A stretch of 64,000 bases of DNA. It comes from Candidatus Phycosocius bacilliformis (lineage in GTDB: Bacteria > Pseudomonadota > Alphaproteobacteria > Caulobacterales > Aquidulcibacteraceae). Made by a program: the position numbers and the translations under genes. Below, in pieces: positions 31,870-57,383 of the stretch. How positions within the stretch are numbered: position 1 is the stretch's first letter; every line of letters starts with the position of its first letter. Where the stretch lies: assembly GCF_003112735.1 (NCBI RefSeq), contig NZ_BFBR01000006.1:62001-126000 (forward strand), in the 5' to 3' direction. The notes below the pieces were generated by a model that made no database searches, had not been told where the DNA came from, and was given only the letters and a program-made list of their open reading frames with translations.

Positions 31870-32441
31870 TGTGGTCCTCATTGGTCTTGTTTTTGATTAG
31901 TGGGACAAACCTTCGTAAGCAGCGGTTTGTTTGGGATGGCGGCTTTAACAACACAAACCTGTCACATTCAAGGCGAATTTCGAAGTTTTTTGATCGCATC
32001 CGCGTGACCAAAAAATCATCCCCGCGGGGCTTGACATCAGTTTTTCTGAAACCTGCCTGAAATGGGCCAATTTTCAGCAAGAAATATGCTAATTTGCCTC
32101 GCTCCTTGGATAAATCTTGGCCAAATTTGCCAAATATGGACCCGATAGACAGGTCATTCTCTTGCGTCATTCTAAATCATAGGTGAATTGCATTTTTGCA
32201 TGGAACCGATTTTTGCACTGAAATTGCCAAGATTCACCCCTGTTTTCGATCAAGCCGAGCGCACGTGCATGACAATCGAGCCCTTCTTCCGACCCAGACA
32301 AGACAGCCAGAGATTCGCCAATCAGGCCCAATTTGCCTGCAGCCCGGCGCGATGATTGGCACCTGCCCCCCTTGACGGCACCGCCGCCAAAGGCCAATAC
32401 GCCGCCTCTCGCACGCAGGTTCCTATAACCGTGAGGCGACG
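31870..32441. other. Intergenic stretch without a supported gene
   Basis: About 570 bp between a small minus-strand gene and tRNA-Val. Two minus-strand open frames (31844-32170, 32167-32397) look non-coding: low similarity to real proteins, AT-rich upstream half, overlap with the 31869 gene. A CCCCGCGGGG palindrome lies near 32025. I see no clear promoter. Confidence 0.5.
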
Positions 32442-32515
32442 GGCGATTAGCTCAGCGGAAGAGCACTGCATTCACACTGCAGGGGTCACTGGTTCAATCC
32501 CAGTATCGCCCACCA
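32442..32515 (+). tRNA. tRNA-Val (CAC)
   Basis: A 74-nt cloverleaf with acceptor GGGCGAT/ATCGCCC, D-arm TAGCTCAGCGGAAGAGC, anticodon stem CTGCA/TGCAG around loop TTCACAC (anticodon CAC), T-arm ACTGGTTCAATCCCAGT and encoded CCA. The accessory stretch begins directly at its 3' end. Confidence 0.95.
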
Positions 32516-32823
32516 TTAAATCAATAACTTAGCTGAGAACCAAAACGGGAACAAAAATTTGGTCCCCATATGGTCCCCATTTGACCAAATTTCGCCCCAC
32601 GCAGATAAAATTGGAAAGCCCTAGGGTTGGACCTGACAAAACTGACAGAAGTGCCGTAAATGGGAATAGTCACCCCACCATACGCACCCGCGCATATATC
32701 TGGCATAAACATCATCCGCCCTCAAAGCAGATTGGCGGGCTTTACCCCGCCATACATCGTACGCGCGAACTGGTCTGAAATTCGCTCTTGCTCATACTCG
32801 CAATGTCGCAGCGAATTGAGTCT
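32516..32823. other. Non-coding stretch after tRNA-Val with short repeats
   Basis: No convincing gene. At 32560-32580 TGGTCCCCATA and TGGTCCCCATT form a direct repeat around a CCATATGG palindrome. A GGCGGG-CTTTAC-CCCGCC hairpin lies at about 32733-32750. CGCGAACTGGTCTGAAA (32764-32780) recurs with one change at 33471-33487. It looks like an old integration scar; I find no second copy of the tRNA 3' end. Confidence 0.4.
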
Positions 32824-33258
32824 CTATTTATCTTCATCGTTGGCAGTAGCTTCTGGTGCCTTTGCTGCAGCTTCTTTTTGTGGCGCCTCACGTTCCCACT
32901 TCTGCGCAAATTTACGCTCATGATCCGCACCCTGTTGAAATCCAGAGTCAAAGGCCACTAATTGCATTCCGGCAACAAAGAGTGAAAGAGCGCCGACCTT
33001 AATGAATGCGAACGTCAAGACGCTGAGTTCGGGGAGCAAATTGTCAACAAAGAAGAGAATTATCGCGACACAAAAACATATCACAAAGATTTCCATAAAG
33101 AAGGTTGGCGGCTTACGTCCATTCTGACCATCCGGGACAGGTTGCCGAACAAATCCAAGCTTCCAAAATAGCGCGGAAACAGCGAAAGCTAAAACCAAGA
33201 AGCCTAAATCTACTTGCCAAGGAAATTCAGAGTTCCATCCAATACTGCTATCGTCCAT
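32824..33258 (-). CDS. Hypothetical membrane protein with charged C-terminus
   Basis: Unrecognised. From ATG 33258 (MDDSSIGWNSEF) it has 144 residues with three hydrophobic segments: DLGFLVLAFAVSALFWKLGF, MEIFVICFCVAIILFFVDNL and FIKVGALSLFVAGMQLVAF. The last 40 residues are charged and Ala/Glu/Lys-rich (KWEREAPQKEAAAKAPEATA). It sits alone between two near-identical 17-bp direct repeats. Lower GC than the core genome. The TTG at 33276 is an unlikely start. Confidence 0.6.
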   Translation of the reverse strand: MDDSSIGWNSEFPWQVDLGFLVLAFAVSALFWKLGFVRQPVPDGQNGRKPPTFFMEIFVICFCVAIILFFVDNLLPELSVLTFAFIKVGALSLFVAGMQLVAFDSGFQQGADHERKFAQKWEREAPQKEAAAKAPEATANDEDK

Positions 33259-33581
33259 AGCCGCTCTCCAAGGCAACTTCTATCAAATCTAATCGTAGGT
33301 CCTCAGAACTTCATTCATTGGTTCGAACGCGTCAAATCACAAACCTAGTCGGACCGATAAATCAGGTATCTGTCCCATTCATCGTTTACTCGTACTTAAC
33401 GAACCTATTTAGCAAATGCATGGTTGCCAGCGTTTCCCGTAACAGCCATCTACCCAACTCATTTTCCGCACGCGAAGTGGTCTGAAAACTCAAACGCGAT
33501 CCGGACAAATCGGCAATCCAAGCCACATCATACGTCACGCGCGCACTTGATGACATTTCAGCCCCCTTCGGGCGTAGGGCT
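33259..33581. other. Intergenic stretch, no supported gene
   Basis: Contains the second 17-bp repeat (33471-33487). Otherwise I see no gene, terminator or promoter that I can support. Confidence 0.4.
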
Positions 33582-33800
33582 TCAGAGATTTAACCCCAGA
33601 ATCTCTAGGCTTGCGCGCTTGATAGCGCGGTCCTGCTTCCGGGCTGTAACCTCATAGTCCATTATTCGCGCCTTTAGCATTGTCGCCTGAATTGCCTCGT
33701 TTGCTTGGGGAGGGTCTGCCATAAGGGCCTTAACCCTCGCTCCTTCGATCTCCTGAAGTAAAGCCGTAATGAGGTTATCTCGGACATTGGGTGACGGCAT
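33582..33800 (-). CDS. Hypothetical small protein, about 72 residues
   Basis: Unrecognised. From ATG 33800 (MPSPNVRDNLITALLQEIEGAR) it is soluble and helical with many Arg, Lys and Ala; GTG 33815 is an alternative start. It lies in the accessory stretch after tRNA-Val. No neighbour explains it. Confidence 0.4.
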   Translation of the reverse strand: MPSPNVRDNLITALLQEIEGARVKALMADPPQANEAIQATMLKARIMDYEVTARKQDRAIKRASLEILGLNL

Positions 33801-33893
33801 TCTCAATTCGGCCACTCGCGTCCTAATGTCTGCGCGCCTAGCCAGCCTCCCAGCCGCCCGCCTGTCGCCATTATGGCCCGCAGCGCGATAGGG

Positions 33894-33980
33894 CTATAGC
33901 TGGGTGTCGCCTTCTGCTAGGCCGCGCAAGAGCGCCTCCACCAAAGCAGGAACAGAGTCCTGAATGTAATTATTTGCCAT
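33894..33980 (-). CDS. Possible 28-residue ORF
   Basis: ATG 33980 opens MANNYIQDSVPALVEALLRG and stops at 33894. It has a protein-like composition and an amphipathic helix but no good ribosome site. It may be real, or a fragment of a decayed gene on the same strand as 33582-33800. Confidence 0.2.
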   Translation of the reverse strand: MANNYIQDSVPALVEALLRGLAEGDTQL

Positions 33981-34052
33981 CAATGAAAGCCGCCTCAGAG
34001 TACTGCAAACTGGCTTCTCTTATTAATCCCTAATTAACCATGAACCAGCGCA

Positions 34053-34328
34053 ATGATAAGCGGGCGCAAAGTTCGCCTTTCCACCATAGAAAATGGGTAT
34101 ATCAATATGATCAGCTTCACTATTACGGCCAAAAGCAACCAAAACACTATTACTTTCACCACGCATGTTTTGCTTGGTGAATTAGGTCCCGCAAACGCCA
34201 AATTCGCAACCGAGGAATGGCTTGAAGACATGACTTCTGATGCCATCTCACTTGGAAAGTGTGCATTTGAAGACGATCACAAGCGAAAGCCGCCAGCAAA
34301 TTGGAGCTGGCAGGCGTCGAGAGACTAA
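34053..34328 (+). CDS. Hypothetical protein, about 91 residues
   Basis: Unrecognised. ATG 34053 or ATG 34107 (MISFTITAKSNQNTITFTTH). It is hydrophilic, ending KRKPPANWSWQASRD. It overlaps an antisense frame (34034-34246) that looks membrane-like; at most one is real and I prefer this one for its more natural composition. Lower GC than the flanks. Confidence 0.35.
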   Translation: MISGRKVRLSTIENGYINMISFTITAKSNQNTITFTTHVLLGELGPANAKFATEEWLEDMTSDAISLGKCAFEDDHKRKPPANWSWQASRD

Positions 34329-34345
34329 CGGCTTACAAGCAGGGC

Positions 34346-34699
34346 CTACCACCGCACACCCAGCCCACGCCGCACGATATGAGGCGCATGGGCGATGATG
34401 GCTAGATAGGCGCGTGTCGCCCGGCTGGGGACAGTCCCCCGCTCCCATGATCGGACGCTATCGACTGATAAGCCATAAATTGAGGCGAAGTCCTCACGCG
34501 AAAGGCCCTCACGCTCCCGAAGCGCTTTGACATCGATTGCATCGGGCACTTGTGCCGATCCTAGCGCCTCAAGGATTGGCGTACGGTTTTCAGCCTTCCA
34601 AGGCAGGCGACGCAACAGGCGGTGGTCACTGTGGCCGAAGTATATCGGGTAGGTGGTGCCTTCGGTTTTTGAAACGAGCAAACGCCCGCTCCAAAACAA
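34346..34699 (-). CDS. HTH (XRE/HigA-like) DNA-binding protein
   Basis: A 117-residue protein with a helix-turn-helix at about residues 60-90: LREREGLSREDFASIYGLSVDSVRSWERG. The ending ATRAYLAIIAHAPHIVRRGLG resembles HigA/NadS-type antitoxins or regulators. The N-terminal 50 residues are unlike the family and the only start is a TTG, so the true start is unclear. It follows the HsdR-N-like gene by 5 bp on the same strand. No toxin gene is adjacent. A 36-residue fragment similar to its C-terminus lies at about 35620-35730. Confidence 0.65.
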   Translation of the reverse strand: MFWSGRLLVSKTEGTTYPIYFGHSDHRLLRRLPWKAENRTPILEALGSAQVPDAIDVKALREREGLSREDFASIYGLSVDSVRSWERGTVPSRATRAYLAIIAHAPHIVRRGLGVRW

Positions 34700-34704
34700 T
34701 TGAA

Positions 34705-35493
34705 CTATCCATCCGCGATCGACGCTGACTGTGCTAACGCCCTACTGGCGTTCCGTGACAGTTTCTGTTCGGCCTTTTTTATGCGCGCTTTCGCCTCTAC
34801 GACTTTATCGCCCTCGATAACATCACGCTTGAGGACCTCATGAGACAGGATATCCAGGATGGTAGTGGCTTCCGCCTTTACATCTGGAAACAACCTGCGA
34901 ACCTCCTTTCGGACAGCTCCCACAACCCCATCCGTGAGGACGCATTGCGCAATGACAAACCTATTCAGAACTTGCGCATTTTGGTGGAAAGAGTTCATTG
35001 CGTCGCTGGCTTGTCCTTCTTTGGCGAGCAAAAGGAGCTTTGCTAGATCATCTTCCTTTCGGGCAGAAAGCTCACCCAGTTTAAAGCTTGTGACTTCTTC
35101 GTGCTCTATTGGCTGACTGAAACGCAAGCGAAACACGCGCCATTCGACCGCATTCGTAAGGATTACCCATTCAATCCCTTGATGGGCGCCATAGTTTACC
35201 GCCTGTCGCAAATGAGTGGCGTTTAGGTCAGTTCCGGCACTCTTTACTTCAATCAAAAATCGGATCTTGCCTTCGAGTCTAACTGCAAGATCGCAGAACG
35301 TGCCCCTAATCTGTTGTTCGCTAGTTAGCTCTTGGTATTTGTCGTATCCAAAAAGTTCCGCAAGCATGTCCTTTACGACTGTTACCGTATCCGCTTCAGA
35401 CACATCACGCTCGCGCTGAGACACTGCAACATTTTGAAAAACTTTCAATTTGGCAACAATTCTATCCACAAATCTCTTTGGCAGTCTCGACAT
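34705..35493 (-). CDS. HsdR N-terminal-domain protein (stand-alone PD-ExK nuclease-like)
   Basis: A 262-residue protein resembling the N-terminal domain of Type I restriction enzyme HsdR, but without helicase. A PD-(D/E)xK core is visible: D68 (FCDLAVRL) and E82-V-K84 (FLIEVKSAG), followed by VNYGAHQGIEWVILTNAVEWRVFRL (key: GIEWVILTNAVEW). ATG 35493 has GGAGG six bases upstream; the frame beginning at 35514 uses TTG. The C-terminal 70 residues are charged and helical. Such free-standing proteins are often found on islands; nuclease activity is not established. It is followed by the HTH gene. Confidence 0.8.
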   Translation of the reverse strand: MSRLPKRFVDRIVAKLKVFQNVAVSQRERDVSEADTVTVVKDMLAELFGYDKYQELTSEQQIRGTFCDLAVRLEGKIRFLIEVKSAGTDLNATHLRQAVNYGAHQGIEWVILTNAVEWRVFRLRFSQPIEHEEVTSFKLGELSARKEDDLAKLLLLAKEGQASDAMNSFHQNAQVLNRFVIAQCVLTDGVVGAVRKEVRRLFPDVKAEATTILDILSHEVLKRDVIEGDKVVEAKARIKKAEQKLSRNASRALAQSASIADG

Positions 35494-35908
35494 TTCATCC
35501 TCCCAAAAGGTCAACCCGAAAAATCAGCCTGAATTGCCTTAAGGTGTCAAGCGGCACTGAAGATTCCTAAGGTTGATTTGATTTTCTAGGTAAGAATCCA
35601 AATATCCCCGCTTGCCCAGACCACCGCACGGCCAACCCACTCCGCACATTGTCAAACGCTTTAGCTACGAGGATCATAGAGGCGCGCTTTTGCTCAGTTT
35701 GAAACGAACCCCGCCCCCCATTGTCGGAGGTGATCGGTGGAAACACCGTGATTTGCCCCCAATCCATTCGAAACCAATCCCACCTGCCCGTTTGCGCCAC
35801 GCACCTCCCGCTAACCGCCGGTCTCGTCATCATGCCGCAACCCGAACTCCATTGTGGCTCCACACAAGCGTGGGCGTCTTGTCCTGTTTGCGAAAGGATC
35901 GGACCGCC
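35494..35908. other. Intergenic stretch with a decayed HTH-like fragment
   Basis: No intact gene. On the minus strand, about 35625-35732, a 36-codon stretch aligns without gaps to the C-terminus of the HTH gene at 34346 (both end VR-x-GL-x-VRW; nucleotides GTGCGG-x-GTGGG are shared). It looks like a remnant of a duplicated antitoxin-like gene. The rest has no features I can support. Confidence 0.45.
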
Positions 35909-36784
35909 ATGATGCGCCACAGCCCCAAAGTCACCACAGATGGAAGGAAGGCTGAAAAGAAGCCGCGGACCACACGCACGAAACAAAATGCTGCTCTTGT
36001 CAGTCTGTCAGCTCTCATGGTTGCCTGTACGACTTTACCAGATGAACAGACCCCTTTTCGCCAAAACCATCCTGAACTGACAGAGGCCTCTGGCTTCCGC
36101 GCGAAAATTCTGGCCAGTCCGCCCCCTGAGCCCGCCATTGAAAGAGGTGCTGCCCTTGTCATCGACCCCATCCGCCTGTCTGCGGAGCATGCGACCGCTG
36201 CGGGCATAACGGCCGATCAAGCCGCTATTCTCAAGCTCGCCCTTGGCCGCCACGTGTGCACAGCCTTGTCAGATCAATTCGACATTGTGGCAGCTGACGG
36301 CGCGGCACAGGCCGCATCCGCATACCGTCTCAAGGCCGAAATATCCGAGGTCATTGCAACTGGCCGTGTTGGGGCCGCAATTGGCAATGCCACAGCCATG
36401 GTGTCACCACTCACCGGTGTCCGCCCGCCCGTTGGCCTCGGGGCGCTGACGGTTCAGTTTGAATTGTACGATGCCTCAGGTCGCGCGACGGCGGCCATGT
36501 TGTGGCGGCAAAAGGCTGATGTCATCAGCTCGGAGGCTTCTGTTTCCCCCATCGGGGATGCCTATGCGCTGACCGAATCCGCCGGGACCGCTTTCGCCGA
36601 TCTTCTGAGCCAGCCGTCGAAGGGTTCCAAGGCGGTCAAAAGTCTAAAGCCAGCGCTTTTGTCAAAGCCGGACCCAGCATGTGAGGGCTTTGGTGGCTCG
36701 CGCGCCCGAGACGCGCTGGGCTTGTTGCCCATCCCCCCTCTGCCGCCGGAAGTGACTGAGCGCAAACGAAAGCCCAAGCCTTAA
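35909..36784 (+). CDS. DUF3313-family lipoprotein
   Basis: A 291-residue exported lipoprotein of unknown function. ATG 35909 leads to a basic N-terminus (RKAEKKPRTTRTK) and a lipobox ending ALMVAC. ALVIDPIRLSAEHATAAGIT and the domain around AYRLKAEISEVIATGRVGAAIGNATAM match DUF3313, a periplasmic lipoprotein family. An open frame extends 297 bp upstream but shows no coding-like sequence. The C-terminal 60 residues are proline- and lysine-rich. Confidence 0.75.
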   Translation: MMRHSPKVTTDGRKAEKKPRTTRTKQNAALVSLSALMVACTTLPDEQTPFRQNHPELTEASGFRAKILASPPPEPAIERGAALVIDPIRLSAEHATAAGITADQAAILKLALGRHVCTALSDQFDIVAADGAAQAASAYRLKAEISEVIATGRVGAAIGNATAMVSPLTGVRPPVGLGALTVQFELYDASGRATAAMLWRQKADVISSEASVSPIGDAYALTESAGTAFADLLSQPSKGSKAVKSLKPALLSKPDPACEGFGGSRARDALGLLPIPPLPPEVTERKRKPKP

Positions 36785-51490: not shown

Positions 51491-51526
51491 TTTATGCACA
51501 TAGTCAGTCTTGAACGAAAAGGAATA

Positions 51527-51556
51527 GCCTATCTTCTGCTGGCCTATCTTCTGCTG
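51527..51556. repeat. 15-bp tandem repeat, two copies
   Basis: GCCTATCTTCTGCTG occurs twice head to tail, in the 171-bp spacer between the ATM1-type gene and the LOG gene. It may be part of a regulatory region or a replication slip. Confidence 0.9.
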
Positions 51557-51661
51557 GTAAGGGCTGATGCATCCCAGACTGAAAAAAGGCATAGAGCCCA
51601 GCCTGTGGGAACTAGGTTCGACTGAGTCGCCATCCAAACAGGATGGCTTGAGGAATTGACG

Positions 51662-52216
51662 ATGAGCAAATTAACATCTGTCTGCGTCTATTGTGGGGCT
51701 TCGAGCCAGGTAGACCCTGCCTATCTTGATCTGGCCACACGGACCGGCCAAGCCATCGCTGCACGCGGCATTCGGCTTGTCTATGGCGGCGGCAATGTCG
51801 GACTGATGGGGGCGTCTTCTAGGGCTGCTAAAGCCGCTGGCGGTGAAGTTTTGGGTATCATGCCGCATTTCTTGACCAAATGGGAAAAACCAAATCCAGC
51901 CATTGAAACCCGTATGGTCGACACAATGCATGAGCGCAAATGGGGGTTGTTTGCTGAGTCTGATGCCTTCATCGTGCTGCCAGGCGGTATTGGTACATTG
52001 GAAGAAGTGGTTGAAACGCTTTCTTGGCAACGCTTGGAGTTACATCAAAAGCCGGTTGTCTTGATTGACCGAGCCTTCTGGCAGCCCTTCATCGACTTCA
52101 TCGAGGGTACGATCGAGTCGAAGTTCACGCCCGAAGCATTTCGCCAGTCCTTCTTCACCGCCGAAACCCCGGAAGAAGCACTTGACGGCCTCCAAGCGGC
52201 GTGTGCAGCGAGCTGA
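51662..52216 (+). CDS. LOG-family Rossmann protein (cytokinin riboside 5'-monophosphate phosphoribohydrolase-like)
   Basis: A 184-residue TIGR00730 protein. YCGASSQVDPAYLDLA, YGGGNVGLMG and the hallmark LPGGIGTLEEV are all visible. It hydrolyses nucleotide 5'-monophosphates; in plants this activates cytokinins, in bacteria its role is nucleotide salvage or unclear. ATG 51662, with TTG 51656 as an alternative. Confidence 0.93.
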   Translation: MSKLTSVCVYCGASSQVDPAYLDLATRTGQAIAARGIRLVYGGGNVGLMGASSRAAKAAGGEVLGIMPHFLTKWEKPNPAIETRMVDTMHERKWGLFAESDAFIVLPGGIGTLEEVVETLSWQRLELHQKPVVLIDRAFWQPFIDFIEGTIESKFTPEAFRQSFFTAETPEEALDGLQAACAAS

Positions 52217-52867
52217 CACCCCTCCTGTTGGCGAAAAATCTCTGTCTGCCATCTATCATGCATTGGCCGACCCTATAGCCAACCTGTCCCCCCCCTCGTG
52301 ATTGGGGTTTCGCAAAAATGCCGCCACCACATGTGCGCGCAGACAGCCAAATTGTGTCTCACTGCCCCTCGTTGACACAACCGTCGAGGGAACCCATGAA
52401 ACAAGTCAAAACAAAATAAAACAGAATAAATTTGAGTATATTTTTGATATACAATGATTAAATTTTGTCAAAAATAATGTTAAAATTTTAGATTTTCAAT
52501 TTTTTGGGGAAAATTGGCGGTTTTATGCAGCATAAACCACTGTTTTACAATCTATTTTTCTAATTAACTGTAATTGAAGATTTATTTTATGTCATCTTAA
52601 CATTAATATCCAATTTGCAACCGATTACGAAATTTACTTTACAGTACTTTCGCCAAGGAGATACCCTTAACAAAGCCTCGGCTCGCTTGGCAGGGGAAGG
52701 TCTCTAACGGGGGAAGCGGACATTTGCCGGACTGTGTCGCCGAAAGCCTCTGCGCGCGCGAAGCGGTTCCTGCATCTCAAGCCGGATTGAACGATCGATG
52801 CGCAGCCAGCTGATGGGGCCAGAATATGGCCCCTCGGCAAGACGAGAAAGAACTTCGAGGAATGATT
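52217..52867. other. Long AT-rich intergenic region upstream of the TetR array
   Basis: About 650 bp without a convincing gene. From roughly 52395 to 52650 the DNA is strikingly AT-rich with A/T runs, unlike any other part of the window. A near-perfect palindrome (GGTTTtATGC-A-GCATAAACC) lies at 52519-52538. The stretch resembles a regulatory region or horizontally acquired DNA. Confidence 0.6.
52519..52538. promoter_or_regulatory. Near-palindrome in the AT-rich region, possible TetR operator
   Basis: GGTTTTATGCAGCATAAACC: two arms of nine bases, one bulged base. It lies about 330 bp upstream of the first TetR gene. Its use as an operator is a guess from symmetry and place. Confidence 0.3.
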
Positions 52868-53602
52868 ATGGCAGCTCAGGACATACGCGGAAGCGACAGC
52901 TGGACCTTCGATCTTCATGTTCAGCGCTGGCTAAACGCGCCTGCGCGCCGTCATGATGTCGCAACGCGCGCCAAGCGTATCCTGGCGAGCGTGCTGCAGG
53001 AATGGCAAGAAGTCGGCTATCTGGAAGCTCAAATCTATCGGATTGCCAATCGGGCTGGCATGTCAACCGCGACACTCTATCGACTGTTTCCAGACAAGGG
53101 CCAACTCAGCTGTGAGGCCCTGCAAATGGGGCATGAAATCCTGATTGATCTCATCACCCAAGTTGATCACCACCCCAATCCAATTCAAGATCTGACTGAA
53201 ATGGTGCGAACCTACGCCATGGCATATCTCCAACCTGGCGTGCAGCAACTCATGCTAAGCCAGACTTTGATGCTGCTGGAGCCAGAGATTGAAGCCAGGG
53301 TCAATGATATTGCGTCAGCGAGCCAAAACCGAATTAACAGCTATTGGCACGAGAAGATTCAGTCGCTGATCGATGAAGATCTGATTCAAGCTGAAAGTTT
53401 GGACTGGCAACGCTGCCGCCTGATTGGTGCAATGGAATCACGCACGCTGGGTCGGTTCTTCTGGAATTATCCGTCCCACTCGCCTGACGTAAGTTGGCAT
53501 CATGATGCCCAAAACATCGTGATGGACTTCTTCAAGCTCTACGGCACGGAGAAGTTCAAAACCTTAAGCCGTACCTACAATTGGAATTGGACGACTGAAT
53601 GA
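52868..53602 (+). CDS. TetR-family regulator, member A of a regulator pair
   Basis: A 244-residue TetR-like regulator. ATG 52868 has GAGG seven bases upstream; ATGs at 52826 and 52862 are possible. The HTH ends with the signature STATLYRLF (residues 66-74). It is longer than a usual TetR (about 200). The ending DFFKLYGTEKFKTLSRTYNWNW shares a pattern (F-F-x-x-Y-G-T-x-x-F) with the other three TetR domains here. The middle VLQEWQEVGYLEAQI is closest to the N-half of the fused gene at 54447. Its stop overlaps the next gene by 4 bp, so A and B are co-translated, perhaps as a heterodimer. Confidence 0.87.
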   Translation: MAAQDIRGSDSWTFDLHVQRWLNAPARRHDVATRAKRILASVLQEWQEVGYLEAQIYRIANRAGMSTATLYRLFPDKGQLSCEALQMGHEILIDLITQVDHHPNPIQDLTEMVRTYAMAYLQPGVQQLMLSQTLMLLEPEIEARVNDIASASQNRINSYWHEKIQSLIDEDLIQAESLDWQRCRLIGAMESRTLGRFFWNYPSHSPDVSWHHDAQNIVMDFFKLYGTEKFKTLSRTYNWNWTTE

Positions 53603-54348
53603 CTGATGTCCTGCCGTTGACACGGGGCGATGCCTTTGTCTTGGCGAAAGTCGAGGCGTTGCTTCAACCTGTGCCCAATCGGCTGGACACGTCAAATCGA
53701 CGCAGCCGCATTGTTGCCGCTGCGGCTTATGAAAATCTGCACAATAATTTTGCGAAGCTGAACGTGCGCGATGTAGCCAAACGCGCTGGTGTCTCGACAG
53801 CCACGCTCTATCGCATTTTTCCCGATGAAAGAACGCTTTATCGGGCCGGCTATGATCTGGCTAATGATCTTTATCGACAATGGCTGTTTCGCGAGAGTAA
53901 TCACCCCAATCCATTGTTTCGCTTCAGCGAAATGCTCTCAGCCTGGGTTGAAATGTGGCCCCGGCCAATGGGGAAAAACATCCGTCCAGGACGCTTTGTC
54001 GAGCTTGACCGGCGTGATGCCATTACATCGGTCTCGACGACAACGTTTTTCAAAACTGCTTTGAGCTTCTGGCTCGGCCAAATCCGTCGATTGACAGAGG
54101 AGCGCTACCTTGATTTTGAGCCCACATACGCCACCATGGAGGAACTTTCAGGGCCGCTGGAAGCCCTGATCTTCTTTCCCACGATTCTAACCTGCCAAAC
54201 TTTCCGCTTTGAAATGAGTGCCTTTGAATATGCATGGCGGACAATTGATGATTTCATGCGCATTCACGGAACACCTCATTTCCATGCGACACGACGACGG
54301 TTGAATTGGGATGATGATCTTGTTGCATTCAGACTAAAGTTTAAGTAA
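53599..54348 (+). CDS. TetR-family regulator, member B of a regulator pair
   Basis: A 249-residue TetR-like regulator, starting inside the stop of gene A (ATGA). RLDTSNRRSRIVAAAAYENL and RAGVSTATLYRIFPDERTLY correspond closely to the C-half of the fused protein (RLDPTNRRNRILAAAIHENF, RAGVSTATLYRVFGDDRSLY). The end reads DFMRIHGTPHFHATRRRLNW, again parallel to DFFQLYGTPHFHACLQKHGW. No ligand domain signature is recognised. Followed by 98 bp, then the fused gene. Confidence 0.87.
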   Translation: MTDVLPLTRGDAFVLAKVEALLQPVPNRLDTSNRRSRIVAAAAYENLHNNFAKLNVRDVAKRAGVSTATLYRIFPDERTLYRAGYDLANDLYRQWLFRESNHPNPLFRFSEMLSAWVEMWPRPMGKNIRPGRFVELDRRDAITSVSTTTFFKTALSFWLGQIRRLTEERYLDFEPTYATMEELSGPLEALIFFPTILTCQTFRFEMSAFEYAWRTIDDFMRIHGTPHFHATRRRLNWDDDLVAFRLKFK

Positions 54349-54446
54349 CCGTCAAGTTACAGCAAAACGGGTTCTTGCGTGCGTTCATTTTAAGCCCGGT
54401 AAATCATAACCTAGGATAACATAGGGCTCTCAAGCACGCAGAAATC

Positions 54447-56024
54447 ATGGAATCACGCGCCCTGCCGCCTGGGTGGCCCCGTCACTTTGCGGCCCAGATC
54501 GACCAATATCTTTCCGGCCAATCCCGCCGTGCCAACTCTGAAGCCCGCTTCCGGACAATTCTGGCAGCGGTTTTGCAGGAATGGGCAGACGTTGGCTTTC
54601 TGCGTGCGAATATCTCTGCGATTGCCGAGCGGGCTCGCGTTTCAACGGCAACCCTTTACCGCCTTTTCCCAAGCCGCGAGACCCTGAACCTTGAGGCGCT
54701 TGCTTTTGGGCATGTCATTCTGATGCAAGCGATGGAGACACGCCCTCGACATCCAAATCTGTTGCGAAACCTCGTTCACATGGTCAATCACTACACCGAG
54801 ATCCTGTGTGAGCGGCATTTCCGTCAATTCTCGCTGGGCCAAACATTCATGGTCCGCCAAGATGCCGACCAACGCGAAGAGGCCAGCCGCATCGCCTTTT
54901 CTGGTCATCGGGCCTTGCACGGCCTGTGGATCGATGAAGTTCGGCGGCTGATCGACGAAGGCTTTCTGCGAGATGGTGATGTGGACCACATGATGTTCCG
55001 CCTGATTGGGCCAATCGAGGCGCGCGCTCTTCATTGGTACCAGGCCGGACGTGGCTATTATCAGCCGTCCAAGAGCTGGCTGCATGAGGGTGTTGATGTG
55101 GTCGAAGGCTTCTTTGCTGTATATGGCACGCGTAAATACAAAATATTCCGAGACACCTACAGCTGGGACTGGAACAATCTGGCTGCTGTATCAGCCAGCT
55201 TTCGCGACCCACCCGTCAGAATTGCAGGGGGAATCCAGCGCTGGGACAGCCTGCCTCACATTGGCCAACTTGAGCAAGCCTTGGCTCAAAAAGCCGTTCC
55301 CCAAGACTTCATTGTCTTCGTATTTCGCGAGCTTAAGGCCATGTCCAGCCGCACCAACAACCGGCTTGACCCAACCAATCGGCGCAACCGCATCTTGGCA
55401 GCCGCGATCCATGAAAACTTTGAGCGCGGATTTGAAAATCTCTCGATCGCGGGCATCGCCCGACGGGCGGGGGTTTCAACGGCTACGCTTTACCGCGTCT
55501 TTGGGGATGACCGTAGTCTCTATGATGAAGCCCATATGCTGGGTCTGTCATTTTTCTGCGCCTGGGTCGCTCAAGACAGCCCGCAGGTCAACCCGATCGC
55601 ACGCATGGCGGATTATCTGATCAGACCTCTATTGACCTATATGGATCCGCGCAGCCTGCGCTTGGGCTCCATTCAATTTGGCCTGATCGCGCGCACGGAA
55701 GAAGGTGAGGTCTTGCCCACCTCGCCTTTGCTCATCCGCTATATCTACGGCTTCTGGGACCGTCGCTTCGCCCGATTGCGCGCCGAAAACTTCCTGTCAG
55801 AGCCAACAAGCTGGAAAATGATCATGGATGTGTTTGGCCCAGTTCAAAGCATGTCTTGGGGGCTAAAGAGCAACTCCGGTCAAACGTGGCTTCCCAGCAC
55901 AAGCTGGTACGAAGTCTGTTGGCGCGTGGCAGAAGACTTCTTCCAGCTTTACGGCACACCCCACTTTCACGCCTGCCTTCAAAAGCACGGCTGGAACAAG
56001 GAATTACCCGGCTTTAACAGCTAA
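54447..56024 (+). CDS. Double TetR regulator (two TetR domains in one chain)
   Basis: A 525-residue protein with two complete TetR units. N-half: HTH signature STATLYRLF at 66-74 and the ending GFFAVYGTRKYKIFRDTYSWDW at about 221-242. C-half: HTH signature STATLYRVF at 344-352 and DFFQLYGTPHFH near 505-516. The halves match genes A and B respectively, so this is best explained as a fusion of an A-B pair after duplication. One chain could bind DNA like a dimer without a partner. No frame interruption is visible. The linker (about 245-305) is not like TetR. Confidence 0.88.
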   Translation: MESRALPPGWPRHFAAQIDQYLSGQSRRANSEARFRTILAAVLQEWADVGFLRANISAIAERARVSTATLYRLFPSRETLNLEALAFGHVILMQAMETRPRHPNLLRNLVHMVNHYTEILCERHFRQFSLGQTFMVRQDADQREEASRIAFSGHRALHGLWIDEVRRLIDEGFLRDGDVDHMMFRLIGPIEARALHWYQAGRGYYQPSKSWLHEGVDVVEGFFAVYGTRKYKIFRDTYSWDWNNLAAVSASFRDPPVRIAGGIQRWDSLPHIGQLEQALAQKAVPQDFIVFVFRELKAMSSRTNNRLDPTNRRNRILAAAIHENFERGFENLSIAGIARRAGVSTATLYRVFGDDRSLYDEAHMLGLSFFCAWVAQDSPQVNPIARMADYLIRPLLTYMDPRSLRLGSIQFGLIARTEEGEVLPTSPLLIRYIYGFWDRRFARLRAENFLSEPTSWKMIMDVFGPVQSMSWGLKSNSGQTWLPSTSWYEVCWRVAEDFFQLYGTPHFHACLQKHGWNKELPGFNS

Positions 56025-56048
56025 TCCTTCCTGTAGTGCTGGCTTGGG

Positions 56049-57383
56049 CTAAGCGACCTGACCTGCCAAACGGGCCGCTGCCTTTTCATAACCAATCAGC
56101 ATGAACATCAGCTTCATTTCAGGACCATGGTCCTGGCCTGTCAGGGCTTGGCGCAACGGCATGAAGAGAGCCTTGCCCTTTGCCCCGGTCGATGCTTTCA
56201 CCGCCTCGGTAAAGCCCGACCAGCTGTTCTCATCATAGGGCCCTGCAGGCAGCAGGTCGGCTGCGGTGGCGATAAACCCACCATCCTCTATCTTGGGCGT
56301 TATCGGACCGCGTACCACGTCGGCCCATTGGGTCACATCATCAAAGCGGGACAAATTGCCGCGAACCGCCAACCAGAAAGCCTCACCCAGATCACAATTC
56401 AAAGCTGACAGGCGCGGCTTCATCACCTCATAACTAGCATGTTGCAGCAATTGGGCATCGAGGCGACGCACATCTTCGGGGTCAAAACGGGCTGGCGCTC
56501 GGCCGATCTTGGCAAAGTCAAACCCGGCAATCAGTGCATCAAGACTGTCAACCGCCTCAATCGGATCAGATGTGCCGATCCGAGCCATCAAGGACAGGAC
56601 TGCCAAGGGGGCAACACCGGACTCCCGCAGGCTTTCCACTGACAGCGAACCGATACGCTTCGACAGGGTTTCTCCATCAGCCCCAACCAGAAGCGGGAAA
56701 TGGCCGAATTCTGGACGCGTGCCACCGGTCAATGCCTCAAAAATTTCTGCCTGCGCGCCAGTATTGGTGACATGATCCTCACCCCGGATCACATGTGTAA
56801 CGCCAAGGTCCACGTCATCGACCACCGATGGCAGCGTGTACAAATAAGCCCCATCGGCCCGGATCAGGACCGGATCGGACATGGAAGCGGTATCCACCGT
56901 CTGCTCACCCCGGATTAAATCTTGCCAAGCCACGCGCTTTCCCGACAGCTTGAAGCGCCAGTGCGGCTTGCGGCCTTCGGCCTCGTAAGCGGCCTTTTCC
57001 GCCTCGCTCAGCGACAAAGCGGCACGATCATAAATAGGCGGCAGTTTACGCGACAAAGCGATCTTGCGCTTGCGGTCGAGTTCTTCAGCCGTTTCATAAC
57101 ATGGATAGAGCAAGCCCATCGCAATCAGCTTGTCGCGCGCCTTGTCATAAACATCAAAGCGCGCAGATTGGCGGGCCTCTTCGTCCCATGTCAGGCCAAG
57201 CCACGTTAGATCGGTACGGATCCCATCCTCATAGGCCTTAGTCGAGCGGGCGGTATCGGTATCATCAATACGCAATAGGAACGTACCGCCGTGCTGGCGC
57301 ACGAACAGCCAATTGCGCAGTGCGGTGATGACATTGCCAACGTGAAGCTTACCGGTGGGCGAAGGTGCAAATCTGACTTTCAT
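56049..57383 (-). CDS. gltX2: Glutamyl-tRNA synthetase 2
   Basis: A 444-residue second GluRS. FAPSPTGKLHVGNVITALRNWLF (HIGH-type) and ETLSKRIGS (KMSKS-type) are both present. TLPSVVDDVDLGVTHVIRGEDHV is typical of the GluRS2 group. In alphaproteobacteria one enzyme mainly charges tRNA-Glu and the other tRNA-Gln, before amidation by GatCAB. It is convergent with the double TetR gene (24 bp apart) and divergent from lexA. Confidence 0.94.
   Translation of the reverse strand: MKVRFAPSPTGKLHVGNVITALRNWLFVRQHGGTFLLRIDDTDTARSTKAYEDGIRTDLTWLGLTWDEEARQSARFDVYDKARDKLIAMGLLYPCYETAEELDRKRKIALSRKLPPIYDRAALSLSEAEKAAYEAEGRKPHWRFKLSGKRVAWQDLIRGEQTVDTASMSDPVLIRADGAYLYTLPSVVDDVDLGVTHVIRGEDHVTNTGAQAEIFEALTGGTRPEFGHFPLLVGADGETLSKRIGSLSVESLRESGVAPLAVLSLMARIGTSDPIEAVDSLDALIAGFDFAKIGRAPARFDPEDVRRLDAQLLQHASYEVMKPRLSALNCDLGEAFWLAVRGNLSRFDDVTQWADVVRGPITPKIEDGGFIATAADLLPAGPYDENSWSGFTEAVKASTGAKGKALFMPLRQALTGQDHGPEMKLMFMLIGYEKAAARLAGQVA

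Follow-up and report, generated by a model that had tools for sequence, protein, structure and literature searches.

The window, a 64,000-nucleotide stretch of the genome of Candidatus Phycosocius bacilliformis, a bacterium of algal blooms (assembly of 3,325,274 bases in 21 contigs), carries an array of TetR genes. Strain BOTRYCO-2 is an ectosymbiont of Botryococcus braunii, with a published genome of 21 contigs, 3,332,539 bp and 56.91% GC (PMC5946039). Open reading frames and Pfam TetR_N matches bear out the predicted layout—two single-domain genes, A and B, overlapping at ATGA and followed by one two-TetR gene, D1—and give four domains in total (Table 1). Each passes the 24-bit gathering cut-off of TetR_N (A, 33 bits; B, 30.3; D1 N-half, 37.9; D1 C-half, 39.8). 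No curated NCBIfam subfamily fits the array TetRs, all matches falling far below their own cut-offs.

Table 1. Features of the TetR array and its upstream region (window coordinates).
Feature	Coordinates	Strand	Evidence
AT-rich conserved non-coding element upstream of A, candidate promoter/operator	52413..52650	+	Alignment of 8 genomes, blastn
Gene A, single A-type TetR, 244 aa	52868..53602	+	TetR_N E 5e-8; clade with fused N-halves; dN/dS 0.08–0.18
Gene B, single B-type TetR, 249 aa, ATGA overlap with A	53599..54348	+	TetR_N E 4e-7; B clade inside B + C-half clade
D1, fused double TetR, 525 aa	54447..56024	+	Two TetR_N domains, E 9e-21
HTH of D1 N-half, residues 31–77, STATLYR recognition helix at 66	54537..54677	+	Model helices 31–49, 56–62, 67–73; region identities
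D1 inter-domain linker, approximately residues 246–286	55182..55305	+	pLDDT < 50 at 246–267
HTH of D1 C-half, residues 309–351, STATLYR at 344	55371..55499	+	Model helices 309–327, 334–341, 345–351; TetR_N 316–361

An alternative in-frame ATG for A lies at 52826; orthologues agree with the tabulated start. The D1 frame has neither frameshift nor internal stop, and other genomes, among them the complete UKL13-1 chromosome, also contain full-length doubles, which excludes an assembly artefact. As originally predicted, A, B and the fused N-half all have STATLYR from residue 66; the motif is repeated in the C-half. The C-terminal pattern proposed as F-F-x-x-Y-G-T-x-x-F is present in all four domains (FFKLYGTEKF in A, FMRIHGTPHF in B, FFAVYGTRKY in the D1 N-half and FFQLYGTPHF in the C-half) in a looser form than claimed, F-F/M-x-x-Y/H-G-T-x-x-F/Y, as the B sequence illustrates.

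Over aligned residues, A is closest to the N-half (36% identity) and B to the C-half (31.5%), ahead of A–C (31%), N–C (27%), A–B (25%) and B–N (25%); shuffled z scores are 69 for A–N, 61 for B–C and 28–41 for the remaining pairs. Phylogeny agrees. An IQ-TREE analysis of 45 single domains (C20 PMSF), with 21 A-type rows (A and N-halves) and 18 B-type rows (B and C-halves), recovers the B-type clade at 100/100 and the A-type clade at 96/97. Gene A forms a clade (100/98), as does gene B (96/93), the latter nested among the B and C-half sequences. With the distant rows removed, the A-type/B-type split reaches 100/100. The suspected pairing by descent of A with the N-half and B with the C-half is thereby borne out; A does not group with B.

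The D1 model (mean pLDDT 86, pTM 0.85) has both halves folded, each with TetR helices 1–9 and an all-helical C-terminal domain (helices 4–9). The original prediction held that these domains exceed standard TetR length, and the model agrees, placing an extra helix at each end of both halves (N-terminal, 13–23 and 288–300; C-terminal, 229–238 and 505–514). These end helices, together with the FFxxYGT motif at the helix 9/10 junction, explain the long domains. The double from Ca. P. spiralis is modelled with lower confidence (mean pLDDT 74.9, pTM 0.72), both halves again folded. D1 and nine other doubles of the genus share one layout, with two complete TetR domains per chain.

Each of the nine genomes of the genus (Aquidulcibacter/Ca. 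Phycosocius) has family members, among them those of Aquidulcibacter paucihalophilus TH1-2, Hyphomonadaceae bacterium UKL13-1 (complete chromosome), Ca. P. spiralis BOTRYCO-1 and several MAGs. The array occupies one conserved locus across these nine genomes, with variable content. Gene order is constant—ABC transporter (−), LOG gene (+), array (+), gltX (−), lexA (+) and dnaE (−), neighbour names that are read from sequence and not HMM-tested—and in Ca. P. spiralis a contig edge truncates the locus on its left. The claim that no effector gene adjoins the array is correct. The source genome, G007 and G008 hold A, B and D1; G003 adds D2. G001, a MAG, has A, an 831-aa B–D1 triple, D2 and D3; G002 has A, B, an N-half-only gene and D2; G004 has A, an N-half-only gene and D2 with one TGA, and lacks B. 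G006 is reduced to A and B with no doubles, G005 to a single double gene. Arrays thus range from two to eight TetR domains. D1 orthologues in G001, G003, G007 and G008 are 50–56% identical, and the A/B overlap is ATGA or GTGA in six of the seven A–B pairs checked. The triple (L083:5378-7873) arose where the B stop was lost by one base, TAA in G003 reading TCA in G001.

Five of eight genomes carry a conserved small ORF of 28 codons (MISLYLSTQLNRLLNHLAGRTEEALKRG in UKL13-1, L084:10716-10802, with equivalents in L083, L047, L088 and L087) in the gap that separates B or A from the following array gene, constant in length and with synonymous changes; the window, L085 and L082 lack it. The ORF may encode a small protein or act as a leader of the gene that follows. 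The read-through of the G001 triple passes over this ORF in a different frame. Separately, D2 of Aquidulcibacter sp. LE19-59.1B (L088:10001-11584) has one in-frame TGA in a genome without B, and its array seems to be in decay.

Outside the genus, related doubles occur only in two sister-genus genomes, G011 (498 aa) and G013 (597 aa). Scans of 398 genomes of the order (E 1e-14) and 385 of the class (E 1e-15) add no other double and otherwise return single ordinary TetRs only, and no relatives turn up on plasmids or phages. The sister-genus doubles sit in gene contexts other than that of the array. Judged by eye, one of them (L050:1459-2955) lies near HMG-CoA-lyase-like and CoA-transferase-like genes, and the other (L051:6824-8617) near a transporter-like gene.

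Could such variable arrays be debris of tandem duplication, ordinary TetR paralogues drifting without joint function? The spread in domain number, the nonsense codon in D2 of G004 (whose whole array may be decaying) and the absence of any doubles from G006 would fit. Against this, dN/dS is well below 1, at 0.07–0.33 for A, B and D1 in every comparison with estimable dS, the locus is fixed in the genus and an upstream element is conserved. Full-length doubles give 0.11–0.17 in three estimable pairs. These ratios show A, B and D1 to be under purifying selection, and we regard drift without function as very improbable.

Both HTHs are retained in every intact member. Recognition helices are nearly alike within a pair (mean identity 76% for A–B, 82% for N–C), whereas helices 4–7 share only 18% (A–B) and 15% (N–C). 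Genes lacking a partner deviate at the recognition-helix signature. The N-half-only genes of G002 and G004 carry TPATLER and TSATLDR in place of STATLYR, with 21–22 of 100 otherwise invariant sites changed; A of G004, whose partner B is gone, reads STASLYQ, with 13 of 82 invariant sites changed, compared with 0–5 in most others. The partner-loss signal is not clean, as A of the source genome has 10 of 79 invariant sites changed despite the presence of B. The pattern is suggestive, and only that, of decay at STATLYR once a partner is lost.

The original prediction also held that a duplicated A–B pair became the single chain. This direction is not supported, since the rootings tried place fused genes either side of the split pair. 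In the 45-domain tree the fused gene of G005 is sister to the split genes in both halves (94/88 and 95/90), and concatenating the halves, with the sister-genus doubles as root, again places it with the split clade (92/97). Forcing all doubles to be monophyletic on the concatenated tree gives p-AU 0.035; the program warns of few replicates here, and the branch leading to the outgroup is 2.3 changes per site long. When each half is used to root the other, p-AU for this constraint is 0.17 and 0.19, not significant. On the unrooted double/split tree the AU test is uninformative, the two trees being identical. Profile scores of the sister-genus doubles add to this picture. Their first halves prefer the A-type profile over the B-type (89 versus 77 and 88.5 versus 71.8 bits), and the second half of G011 prefers the B-type (53.7 versus 32.2 bits), biases that exceed the spread in 135 other TetR matches (s.d. 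7 bits) and suggest that the fused order is older than the genus. All ten doubles have a spacing of exactly 78 residues from GTxK to NRLD, which speaks for a single fused ancestor.

Taken together, the G005 placement, AU tests, half-specific profiles and constant spacing make fission the better reading: we favour, short of proof, the split A + B pair being the product of a fused ancestor, and think this probable. That ancestor would have duplicated, one copy then splitting into A and B, with lineage-specific losses and one stop-loss refusion to follow. The converse, in which A and B are ancestral separate genes and the doubles stem from a single fusion of a duplicated pair, with the same function as we propose below, we hold to be possible and appreciably less probable. 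Unrooted, doubles and split pairs do form opposite sides of one branch; one fusion would equally yield the 78-residue spacing; and the B–D1 stop loss of G001 demonstrates that fusion occurs at this locus. A single fusion sits poorly, however, with a G005 fused gene that groups with the split genes in each half and again on concatenation, with the rejection of an all-doubles tree under the sister-genus root, and with a fused order that seems to predate the genus.

Targets had been predicted to lie elsewhere or in the AT-rich region. The latter does hold a conserved non-coding element of 240 nt, which aligns in blocks of 70–94% majority identity across the eight genomes that keep A. Four words within it are invariant: TAAATTTGA (52427), TTAACTGTAATTGAA (52564), ATTTATTT (52580) and TTACTTT (52634). 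By blastn the element matches seven congeners (68–75% over approximately 160–180 nt) and none of 32 more distant relatives. It is kept across species whose synonymous sites are saturated. An Rfam search of 51500–56500 gives no match, and palindromes or repeats in the element are not clearly above those of shuffled columns. TTAACTGTAATTGAA occurs once in the genome, with one further copy at two mismatches. The element is the best candidate for an A–B operator and promoter, from which the array may regulate itself.

Elsewhere in the window, positions 32001–36000 have a lower G + C content (0.50–0.52) and adjoin a tRNA-Val (32441–32515); this is a possible island. An ORF at 34705–35514 resembles, by eye, a restriction-enzyme N-domain.

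We consider it likely that the array belongs to a family of asymmetric TetR pseudo-dimers, akin to Mce3R, built either as one chain or as coupled A + B and descended from one fused ancestor by later fission. The locus would encode such pseudo-dimers from two old paralogous halves, A-type and B-type: in D1 the two would be tethered in a single chain, and in A + B they would be translationally coupled proteins expected to heterodimerize. Each complex would place two HTHs on DNA through a nearly identical recognition helix, and a shared A/B four-helix interface would bring together two different ligand-binding domains, so that one asymmetric sensor may control one near-symmetric DNA reader, presumably by ligand-dependent repression. 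A and B would probably bind the AT-rich element upstream of A, in autoregulation, as well as unlinked targets.

TetR proteins are normally homodimers. A and B could accordingly be independent homodimeric TetRs, with the doubles dimerizing N–N and C–C into two symmetric repressors, an arrangement that follows the norm of the family and that near-identical recognition helices, suited to symmetric sites, would serve. We judge it unlikely. It does not fit the ATGA/GTGA coupling of A and B or the apparent decay of partnerless survivors, it leaves the constant spacing in doubles without a reason, and an equivalent model has been tested and rejected for Mce3R (PMC11667970). By comparison, an obligate A–B heterodimer, as first proposed, is plausible from the translational coupling, the parallel trees of the two halves and that same partner-loss pattern.

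Single-chain double TetRs are already known from Mce3R; the coexistence of split and fused forms is the new part. Searches of open-licence full text for heterodimeric or double TetRs yielded only Mce3R and the engineered scTetR, with no paper found on a natural heterodimeric TetR and, among natural doubles with a solved structure, only Mce3R. Whether the genus holds a natural obligate A + B heterodimer beside a single-chain form, the two interconverting by fission and stop-loss fusion, we rate as evenly balanced. If it does, asymmetric ligand sensing could be separated from near-symmetric DNA reading by direct comparison of A + B with D1. Having both forms in close relatives makes it testable why the halves must differ, whether tethering alters response or affinity, and which way fusion and fission went. 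A and B would also supply a natural orthogonal subunit pair for sensor design.

Among known systems, ordinary homodimeric TetRs are the simplest comparison. Each array half is likewise a TetR by TetR_N, and the D1 N-half superimposes on MLR_4833 (3bhq; Z 18.0, 197 residues, RMSD 2.7), which like an Agrobacterium protein (3c2b) scores Z 17–18. An ordinary TetR forms one symmetric homodimer, however, whereas the array has two subunit types, fused or co-encoded. The engineered single-chain scTetR (PMC1797012) resembles D1 in having two TetR domains per polypeptide and acts as a tethered dimer, but it is a laboratory construct; D1 is natural, and its halves are strongly diverged.

The closest counterpart is Mce3R (Mycobacterium tuberculosis Rv1963c, 9b7y), the best full-length match to D1 in the PDB in both sequence and fold, which similarly joins two non-identical TetR domains in one chain with both HTHs kept. 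As to a possible common descent of the two as double proteins, the profile match (E 6e-10) comes mostly from the HTHs, and in phmmer the best pairings are crossed (C-half to M1, N-half to M2). Foldseek aligns D1 with Mce3R over 495 columns (E 4.3e-5, RMSD 11.7) and VIA-align over 362 residues in both halves (Z 16.2, RMSD 7.8); the Ca. P. spiralis double gives Z 15.3 over 361 residues, again in both halves (RMSD 7.5). The high RMSDs mean that the halves are not superposable in detail, and the domain arrangement may differ. Mce3R is the sole solved chain to match both D1 halves among the matches listed, in VIA-align lists that are full of single-domain N-half matches and so barely probe the C-half. 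The two proteins share 14–16% identity and differ in build: 406 aa with domains of approximately 200 aa in Mce3R, against 525 aa with domains of approximately 240 aa and extra end helices in D1. The two HTHs of Mce3R differ, while the recognition helices of D1 are nearly alike, and the papers searched yielded no description of a split A + B counterpart. Cryo-EM of Mce3R revealed an asymmetric M1–M2 four-helix bundle, one ligand domain and a nonpalindromic operator, and its authors cite work predicting 204 double TetRs for Actinomycetes (PMC11667970). The single-chain dimer proposed for D1 thus has a solved precedent in Mce3R, by analogy with which the N- and C-halves of D1 may pack through a four-helix bundle of their own.
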